Shown here: positions 18,105 through 45,020 of the stretch, piece after piece | How positions within the stretch are numbered: position 1 is the stretch's first letter | Layout: each line of letters opens with the position of its first letter | Origin: an uncultured Bradyrhizobium sp. | Lineage (GTDB): Bacteria; Pseudomonadota; Alphaproteobacteria; Rhizobiales; Xanthobacteraceae | DNA length: 64,000 nucleotides | Assembly (NCBI RefSeq): GCF_936928535.1 | Contig: NZ_CAKZHY010000099.1 | Span: forward strand, 62,001 to 126,000 | Direction: 5' to 3' | Position numbers and translations under genes: made by a program | Notes under the pieces: generated by a model | Told to the model about the DNA's origin: nothing | What the model saw: only the letters and a program-made list of their open reading frames with translations | The model's database searches: none

Positions 18105-18158
18105 ACACCTGTTGAACTGGCCGCAGTTTCGACAAGCACAAACCAAGCAAACAAAAGT

Positions 18159-18318
18159 GCGAAGCCGCGGACGCCGTTGAAGCACTCGATCCCGGAGTTC
18201 CCTACGAAAGTAGGTGGGCACCATATGTCCGGGCCCACGGGCCCGGCCAGGGACAGTTCCCTAAAGGATCGATAAGGCCCCGGGGATATATGGCTCCTGA
18301 CGCGCGTCGCAGCTTCGC
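18159..18318 (-). ncRNA. ssrS: 6S RNA
   Basis: A 160-nt span that fits 6S RNA, which mimics an open promoter and sequesters housekeeping RNA polymerase. On the minus strand the 5' end GCGAAGCTGCG-ACGC pairs with the 3' end GCGT-C-CGCGGCTTCGC over about 15 bp with one bulged C. The flanking arms include TCGATCC pairing with GGATCGA, a GC-rich apical hairpin (GGCCGGGCCC/GGGCCCGG), GCCATAT with ATATGGT, and the segments GGGAACTGTCCC and TAGGGAACTCCGGGATCG. A T-rich run (ACTTTTGTTTG) follows. Position between zapA and fau, same strand, is the classical ssrS location. A possible -10 (TACATT on minus) lies at 18325-18330. Confidence 0.9.
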
Positions 18319-43705: not shown

Positions 43706-43783
43706 CGTCATTCCGGGGCGGCTCGCAGAGCCGAACCGGAATCTCGAGATTCCGGGTTCGCGCTTCGCGCGCCCCGGAATGAC
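43706..43783. repeat. Palindromic intergenic repeat, family D copy 2
   Basis: GTCATTCCGGGGCGGCTCGC, AGAGCCGAACCGGAATCTCG on the left; AGATTCCGGGTTCGCGC and GCGCGCCCCGGAATGAC on the right. It lies between the rpmE terminator and the convergent DUF1465 gene. Confidence 0.87.
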
Positions 43784-44459: not shown

Positions 44460-44575
44460 AAAAAAAGAGCCGCCGGAGACCGGCGGCTTTGAAAGTTGAT
44501 AACAGGGAGGCGTCAAACAGAGTGGACAGGAGCCACTCGGTGTCCAAACGAGGACAGTTCCAGTCATAAACTCGA
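44460..44575 (-). ncRNA. Candidate trans-acting small RNA with anti-Shine-Dalgarno loops (alpha-r14/suhB-RNA-like)
   Basis: Read on the minus strand: hairpin 1 TGTCC-TCGTTT-GGACA (44541-44556), hairpin 2 GAGTGG-CTCCTGT-CCACTC (44520-44538), a single-stranded GACGCCTCCCTG, then terminator GCCGCCGG-TCT-CCGGCGGC followed by CTCTTTTTTT (44460-44487). Three C/U-rich motifs (TCCTCG, CTCCTG, CCTCCC) sit in loops or linkers and could pair with ribosome-binding sites, the design of the alpha-r14 sRNA family in rhizobia. The 5' end is an estimate. No protein gene ends just upstream of this terminator. Confidence 0.6.
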
Positions 44576-44658
44576 AAGCTTAATGGTGCGTAAACGAACG
44601 ATTTTTTTGAAGGTTCGTTAGCCATGTCGGCCAGAGGCCGAGCCGCCCCTCTCTTCGC

Positions 44659-44815
44659 CGTCATTCCGGGGCGCGACGAAGTCGCGAGCTACGATGCGCA
44701 ATTGCGCATCTGAGAATCCATAACCACAGGGAGACGGAGTGGCCCGCCTGCCCGTTTCAACATCCTGTGGTTATGGATTCCGGGTTCGGCGCTGCGCGCC
44801 GCCCCGGAATGACGG
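44659..44815. repeat. Palindromic intergenic repeat, family D copy 3 with insertion
   Basis: GTCATTCCGGGGCGCGACG and TCGCGAGCTACGATGCGCA, then GAATCCATAACCACAGGGAG on the left. CATCCTGTGGTTATGGATTC, CGGGTTCGGCGC and CGCCCCGGAATGAC lie on the right. The inner arms TCCATAACCACAGG/CCTGTGGTTATGGA are perfect. Confidence 0.85.
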
Positions 44816-44828
44816 CGGAGAGAGAACC

Positions 44829-45020
44829 CTACGACTTGAAAAAACTGTCCGCCGCATCGCGCGAGGCTCGCTTTTTGGTGGCGGCTTCTTCCAGTCTTGC
44901 GATCTCGGTCTTGAGCAGGGCGACGCGCTCGGTCAGTTCCTCGACCGACAACAGTGAGAGATCCTGTCCGATCTCATGGGTGACCTTCTTGCGCGGACGG
45001 TCGTCGTCTTCCATCGGCAT
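44829..45020 (-). CDS. DUF1192 family small protein
   Basis: A 63-aa protein: acidic/basic N-terminus (MPMEDDDRPRKKVTHEIG), then QDLSLLSVEELTERVALLKTEIARLE, a short coiled coil, and a basic tail. This is the DUF1192 pattern of alphaproteobacteria. AGGAGG lies 8 nt before ATG 45020; a second ATG two codons later (45014) is also possible. Divergent from the quinone oxidoreductase gene. Function unknown. Confidence 0.85.
   Translation of the reverse strand: MPMEDDDRPRKKVTHEIGQDLSLLSVEELTERVALLKTEIARLEEAATKKRASRDAADSFFKS

Follow-up and report, generated by a model that had tools for sequence, protein, structure and literature searches.

A BjrC1505 small RNA beside rcdA in Bradyrhizobium, with a conserved upstream CtrA-type box and putative transporter targets

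The minus strand of the window (the whole 64,000-nucleotide stretch of DNA from an uncultured Bradyrhizobium sp. that was analysed) encodes an RNA that, judging from its sequence, almost certainly belongs to the BjrC1505 family (RF02356). BjrC1505 was already known and catalogued as a family, having been named in the Bradyrhizobium/Rhodopseudomonas lineage; the copy in the window adds a new member to it, one that carried no annotation. The sequence-only reading, which had proposed an unannotated sRNA here, was correct as regards the annotation of the window but not as regards the family, which is already present in Rfam. Computational analysis of this family reveals selection on the structure, one stretch that hardly varies, a conserved upstream box of the CtrA type and a conserved place at the side of rcdA. 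On balance, the RNA appears to be a CtrA-driven, trans-acting sRNA with its own terminator that represses transporter mRNAs. As an object, the RNA is ordinary; its setting is more interesting than the sequence-only reading supposed.

Family identity, structure and conserved elements

An Rfam covariance-model scan identifies 44460-44601 (minus strand) as RF02356 with a score of 132.8 bits (E 9e-26; the curated cut-off is 50 bits), and the alignment is complete, covering model positions 1-140 of 140. The RNA is single-copy: its own genome contains one RF02356 match, as do most of the genus and family genomes listed. The original BjrC1505 paper (Madhugiri 2012) is said to have verified the sRNA by blot. 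The features of the locus are the following.

44460..44601, minus strand: match to RF02356 (BjrC1505), 132.8 bits; the 5' end takes in the putative promoter box
44460..44560, minus strand: predicted mature sRNA of about 100 nt, the start being placed by the -10-like element
44580..44594, minus strand: predicted CtrA-type box TTTACGCACCATTAA, TTAA-N7-TTAA with one mismatch (TTTA-N7-TTAA), from sequence
44563..44568, minus strand: -10-like TATGAC, 11 nt after the box, an analyst's reading of the sequence
44541..44556, minus strand: hairpin 1, with covariation at all 6 of its pairs; most of the 67 alignment rows do not conserve the loop, TCCTCG
44520..44538, minus strand: hairpin 2, GAGTGG-CTCCTGT-CCACTC, 4 of 6 pairs covary
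44500..44519, minus strand: near-invariant stretch TGTTTGACGCCTCCCTGTTA with CCTCCC, the presumed mRNA-pairing seed; mean majority identity 0.97 over 16 columns
44468..44488, minus strand: terminator stem-loop of 9 bp, from position, covariation and terminator scan
44460..44466, minus strand: terminator T run, 7 T, from sequence position
44829..45020, minus strand: DUF1192 gene, the upstream neighbour; PF06698, 92.2 bits
43790..44299, minus strand: rcdA, encoding the protease adaptor RcdA (DUF1465), the downstream neighbour, outside the RNA; NF051867, 195 bits (NCBIfam cut-off, 170); PF07323, 195.3 bits

Given that the 140-nt RF02356 model begins upstream of the CtrA-type box, the 5' third of the model probably represents the promoter.

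The terminator consists of a 9-bp stem with 8 G-C pairs and a 3-nt loop (44488->44468) followed by the seven T, so that the terminator claimed by the sequence-only reading holds, with a stem one pair longer than the 8 bp given there. Taken by itself, the terminator scan is not above chance (1 found vs a mean of 0.9 in shuffles); it is the Rfam match, the fold z-score and the covariation that set the feature above chance. The segment 44460-44563 folds with a z-score of -4.6, and none of 200 shuffles is as stable. Covariation was assessed in 67 diverse rows of a 72-row alignment (loci L097, L103, L110, L115 and L122, which were cut early by the end rule, are omitted), for a three-helix structure named by the analyst in which hairpin 1 was included by hand. 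Of its 19 pairs, 14 change on both sides and 95.7% of the cells are paired; neither value is reached in any of 500 shuffles, which do not keep the relatedness of the rows, and sliding the partners drops the pairing to 36-49%. RNAalifold unaided predicts hairpin 2 and the terminator only (12 pairs). The two small hairpins noticed from the sequence lie at 44556->44541 and 44538->44520, and in hairpin 1, 93.7% of the cells pair. The length of loop 2 varies among the rows, which disfavours a coding reading of the core.

All three anti-Shine-Dalgarno-like motifs of the sequence-only reading are present in the window (minus strand: TCCTCG, 44554->44549; CTCCTG, 44532->44527; CCTCCC, 44510->44505), but deep conservation is limited to one. 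The 67 rows retain CCTCCC in 61 cases, CTCCTG in loop 2 in 30 and CCTC in hairpin 1 in 8. The sequence-only reading was correct in seeing here an sRNA gene that carries its own terminator and an anti-Shine-Dalgarno-like element. The surrounding TGTTTGACGCCTCCCTGT is the most conserved element of the RNA (mean 0.97 over 16 columns), followed by stem 2 (0.93), stem 1 (0.85) and loop 2 (0.81). CCTCCC follows hairpin 2 and precedes the terminator; in the Rfam model as well as in the fold of the window RNA itself, it occupies the loop of a weak hairpin, whereas the consensus fold (RNAalifold) leaves the stretch unpaired. Accordingly, the original description of the motifs as lying in "loops or linkers" is fair. 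The flanks of CCTCCC can form 4 pairs (a weak 4-bp stem) in 54 of 61 rows, in 48 of which the letters are identical, so the alignment neither supports nor refutes this stem.

The sequence-only reading assigned the RNA to the suhB/alpha-r14 type and named an Rfam search as the check; the search returns RF02356 as the best family, with suhB below its cut-off. The likeness to suhB/MmgR (RF00519, alpha-r8) consists of the 3' half with CCUCCC before the terminator and the anti-Shine-Dalgarno logic, and the similarity is weak: with the cut-off at 41 bits, the score is 25.4 bits here and 23.7-35 bits in some relatives; suhB is 77 nt long. Each listed suhB match is under 41 bits, and RF02356 scores higher at the same place. 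In alpha-r14, according to the available part of PMC10746234, three hairpins each carry an unpaired CCUCCUCCC, a motif that is absent from 44460-44601. Membership in either suhB/mmgR or alpha-r14 is thus highly improbable and counts as refuted, although the RNA may share an ancestry with suhB.

Several other sRNAs resemble the window RNA in one respect or another. As far as the available text of the sources goes, NfeR1/alpha-r14 shares with it an anti-Shine-Dalgarno motif aimed at transporter mRNAs (PMC7143759, PMC10746234) but has three identical copies of CCUCCUCCC, six gene copies in S. meliloti and LsrB/NtrC control, whereas the window RNA has one conserved CCUCCC, one copy (a single RF02356 match in its own genome) and a CtrA-type box; NfeR1/alpha-r14 was rejected for these reasons. 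AbcR1/AbcR2 are alike in their two CU-rich anti-Shine-Dalgarno motifs and nutrient-uptake targets (PMC7143759, in part); they are set apart by locus, being encoded in tandem at lsrB, whereas the window RNA is one gene at rcdA/DUF1192. CcnA of Caulobacter is an sRNA with an upstream CtrA box for which activation by CtrA has been proposed, but is set apart by its description in the accessible part of PMC8959179: it is encoded at the origin of replication, is 182 nt long, has a CCCC loop and acts on ctrA and gcrA. EcpR1 and GspR of Sinorhizobium are likewise rhizobial sRNAs linked to the cell cycle. As an ortholog, EcpR1 was rejected by its divK-pleD/rpmG locus and its loop UCCGCCGCAUCU, which is absent from the window RNA with its DUF1192-rcdA locus, and GspR by its locus between SMc03844 and SMc03845 and its distribution, limited to Sinorhizobium. 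By contrast, SmelC671, for which the partial source text mentions relatives in Bradyrhizobiaceae, is for that reason a candidate S. meliloti counterpart of BjrC1505. Two loci (L098 and L121) weakly resemble SorX, at 37.4 and 28.6 bits (the cut-off is 46.6), which may point to a relationship with other alphaproteobacterial sRNAs of the CCUCC type. Elsewhere, the window contains a 6S RNA (18158-18318, minus strand; RF00013, 89.9 bits, cut-off 46.4).

Spread of the family and its place beside rcdA

RF02356 matches are found in 115 of 117 genomes of the genus, in 173 of 198 genomes and 43 of 47 genera of the family, and in 245 of 297 sampled genomes and 106 of 122 genera of the order (212 of the genomes over the cut-off). 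A class-wide sample of 289 genomes yields 30 with a match; 27 of these lie outside the order, and 14 of the 30 exceed the cut-off. In the genus, family, order and class searches, 14 well-known control genomes gave no match; with E up to 1, seven of the same 14 match RF02356, none of them over the cut-off, and Caulobacter vibrioides has no match over the cut-off. A scan of named genomes with a 19-nt core detects at least 118 stretches. Among the matches listed, all are from alphaproteobacteria or unplaced Proteobacteria, and the genera include Bradyrhizobium, Nitrobacter, Bosea, Devosia, Mesorhizobium, Phyllobacterium, Stappia and Sneathiella, the last of which lies outside Rhizobiales. Loci L089-L128 were hand-picked, mostly one or two per family, among the order matches listed, which are the stronger ones. 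One genome (G325, family f18) carries two copies of the sRNA, L161 and L177 (63.5 and 43.8 bits, the second under the cut-off); both have the CtrA-type box in exact form, and RcdA is absent from both loci. Family f24 contains diverged sRNAs (L134-L137; 33-40 bits) in which the hairpin 2 region is enlarged and the core is reduced to CTCCCTGTT; they score below the Rfam cut-off yet occupy the same locus, and the RF02356 model probably misses diverged members such as these.

The gene neighbourhood is strongly conserved. Among the first 128 loci, rcdA is located downstream in 125 and DUF1192 upstream in 111, in both cases on the strand of the RNA. Of 118 loci selected by the 19-nt core alone, 110 have RcdA directly downstream, 5 end too early and 3 differ. 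In 61 loci, the distance from the terminator to the start of the RcdA profile match is 91-344 nt, with a median of 161.

RNA and RcdA also tend to occur together. In the family, each of the 172 genomes whose RNA match exceeds the cut-off also matches the RcdA profile (E up to 0.001), whereas among the 26 genomes without it (several of them fragmentary, five identified by elimination) 20 lack an RcdA match and 6 have a weak one (G129, G134, G172, G175, G196 and G304; E 3e-25 to 7e-5). Because the two genes adjoin, one missing contig removes both, so joint loss may be an assembly gap. Well-assembled genomes without the RNA come from five genera of the family (g2, g7, g14, g19 and g41); in one genome of g14 and one of g19, the flanking genes are kept and the RNA was not found (L148, L147). 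As a separate observation, the well-assembled genomes of g2, g7 and g41 have no RcdA profile match, except for one faint match in g41 (E 6.8e-5), apparently reflecting lineage-specific loss of this CtrA protease adaptor. In the order, RcdA is detected in 238 of the 245 RNA-positive genomes and in 27 of the 52 RNA-negative ones, leaving 7 and 25 without it (Fisher p 5e-16, a value that ignores kinship and takes RNA-negative genomes by elimination); some of the 27 carry a diverged RNA copy at the locus. In the 7 RNA-positive genomes without RcdA, three of which are listed with 6-9% contamination, the RNA lies beside DUF1192 or rpmE, the box is kept and the match exceeds the cut-off in 6.

This arrangement could suggest that the RNA is a cis-acting leader or attenuator of rcdA, such that the CtrA-type box would be the rcdA promoter and the terminator would meter read-through. 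The shared strand, the short distance, the conserved adjacency and the absence of RNA and RcdA from the same family genomes are all compatible with such an arrangement. Nevertheless, it appears unlikely. The persistence of RNA and box in the 7 genomes without detectable RcdA indicates that the RNA is not simply an rcdA leader and has no obligatory cis link to rcdA; conservation peaks in a C-rich stretch suited to pairing in trans; and the consensus fold shows no alternative hairpin that would break the terminator.

The sRNA-rcdA pair is flanked by two inverted-repeat elements with GTCATTCCGGGGC ends (44660-44813 and 43707-43783). This motif occurs 6 times in the window at one mismatch or fewer, against 0.18 expected, and the elements are possibly REP-like; in B. 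japonicum, Br-REP1/2 have been described (PMC5082802, in part).

The upstream CtrA-type box

Among 71 dissimilar loci, whose upstream regions are pairwise less than 60% identical, the box is present with at most one mismatch in 67 and exactly in 30, including loci outside the order; in dinucleotide shuffles of the same regions, the respective frequencies are 11% and 0.6%. Its start lies 75-87 nt upstream of the core in 67 of the 71. This count draws on the 155 loci with a match minus 5 without a recognisable core (L107, L129, L163, L134 and L136), and therefore leans towards conserved members; three of those left out (L163, L134 and L136), when inspected separately, contain the box. Retrieval with the RF02356 model, by which most of these loci were found, favours loci that have a box, because the model itself includes one. 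In the unbiased set selected by the core, in which related species were not thinned and species are shared with the 71-locus set, the box is found with at most one mismatch in 111 of 114 loci and exactly in 54.

The CtrA consensus is given as TTAA-N7-TTAAC in the available part of PMC7200025 and as TAA-N7-TTAAC in that of PMC3616915. Because TATGAC follows the box by 11 nt, a -35 hexamer at the usual 17-nt spacing from it would fall inside the box, and a generic sigma-70 scan found no promoter here. A site for general sigma-70 or another AT-rich element, with an sRNA that still carries an anti-Shine-Dalgarno seed, would account for a window box that is one mismatch off at a locus where, in Bradyrhizobium, the CtrA site is a predicted one. 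This explanation seems improbable in view of the exact 7-nt spacing, the constant distance to the core and the share of exact boxes in both locus sets, some of them outside the order. A conserved upstream CtrA box serves as a criterion for the CtrA regulon, and its presence in nearly all loci of either set makes it likely that BjrC1505 is under CtrA control. The same conservation lends support to the earlier suggestion that the rcdA neighbour may imply a link to the cell cycle.

Between the terminator and rcdA, 16 of 61 loci carry another box with no more than one mismatch (about 4% in shuffles), so rcdA can have a box of its own, which argues further against the first box being a leader promoter. 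Both boxes are present and exact in all six loci of family f24 that were examined, two of which closely resemble a named Mesorhizobium locus. The cis-leader explanation does draw support from S. meliloti, where, in the accessible text of the two reports, a CtrA motif has been assigned to rcdA (PMC3616915) and CtrA binds upstream of rcdA by ChIP-seq (PMC4433202). According to the latter source, rcdA expression is unchanged upon CtrA depletion, which counts against the CtrA-driven reading; its available text does not contain the words sRNA or small RNA. A second transcript at the S. meliloti rcdA locus, namely the sRNA, is a possible reason for CtrA binding without an rcdA response.

The literature found, mostly open-access and available in part, includes no report that ties BjrC1505 to CtrA and, the naming paper aside, no mention of the rcdA locus, the box or the order-wide spread for this family. 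The spread across the order, the rcdA adjacency and the CtrA-type box are new here, with priority not established given that the literature was mostly open-access.

Candidate targets and the proposed mechanism

In 11 Bradyrhizobium genomes, the nine-base complement of the seed, ACAGGGAGG, is found 104 times at 3-9 nt before an ATG; read backwards, the pattern is found 6 times. A frame of 60 aa or more is opened at 88 of 102 ACAGGGAGG loci as against 23 of 43 loci with the canonical ACAAGGAGG (p 6e-5), a control pattern run in 6 of the 11 genomes; the 14 target and 20 control loci without such a frame were outside the domain scan. The largest homology cluster of target loci comprises 12 loci, and 12 target proteins match Pfam Peripla_BP_6. 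Solute-binding proteins account for about 24 of the 88 targets (the sum of the family counts 12 + 6 + 2 + 2 + 2, assuming that no protein is counted twice) and for 1-2 of the 23 controls, in which two solute-binding families have one match each, in one or two proteins. The excess has p 0.02 if the control holds one such protein and p 0.09, which is not significant, if it holds two, and orthologous targets of several genomes are not independent counts. The idea of the sequence-only reading that the RNA acts, as those sRNAs do, on transporter mRNAs thus receives support of an indirect and statistically modest kind.

In the window's own genome, the complement of the 14-nt core has no mismatch-free site besides the gene itself; with up to 2 mismatches, there are 71 matches as opposed to 43 for the backward control, and the other listed ones have 2 mismatches. 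Pairing beyond the 9-nt seed was not seen at the target candidates. In the absence of longer pairing and of a perfect 14-nt site, the candidate targets show no specificity beyond that expected of anti-Shine-Dalgarno RNAs in general, and other CCUCC-bearing sRNAs could lie behind the same ACAGGGAGG sites. Whether BjrC1505 acts on transporter targets is an evenly balanced proposition. Alternatively, the near-invariant stretch might bind a protein or a few cell-cycle mRNAs (ctrA, gcrA), the transporter signal being incidental. This appears doubtful, but the 0.97 identity of the stretch exceeds the need of a 6-8 nt anti-Shine-Dalgarno seed, and EcpR1, GspR and CcnA are precedents of alphaproteobacterial sRNAs that act on dnaA, gcrA or ctrA.

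If the BjrC1505 RNA is a CtrA-driven repressor of transporter mRNAs, phosphorylated CtrA would bind the box, which would replace the -35 element, and drive transcription of an RNA running from about 44557-44560 to the terminator. The CCUCCC motif would pair with ribosome-binding sites of the GGGAGG type and block translation, mainly of mRNAs for periplasmic solute-binding proteins of transporters. By this route, nutrient uptake would be matched to the cell cycle by CtrA, a protein that in Caulobacter and S. meliloti requires RcdA, the product of the neighbouring gene, for its destruction. More broadly, and tentatively, an ancient CtrA-driven sRNA beside rcdA, shared by the order and some sister orders, might link division to uptake through the silencing of solute-binding proteins; one S. 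meliloti CtrA box would then belong to the sRNA, which could partly account for the presence of CtrA upstream of an unresponsive rcdA. If the box works, BjrC1505 would be among the more widely kept alphaproteobacterial sRNAs and a direct output of CtrA, the published CtrA ChIP signal at rcdA would gain a second possible owner, and cell-cycle control would gain a post-transcriptional arm reaching into metabolism.
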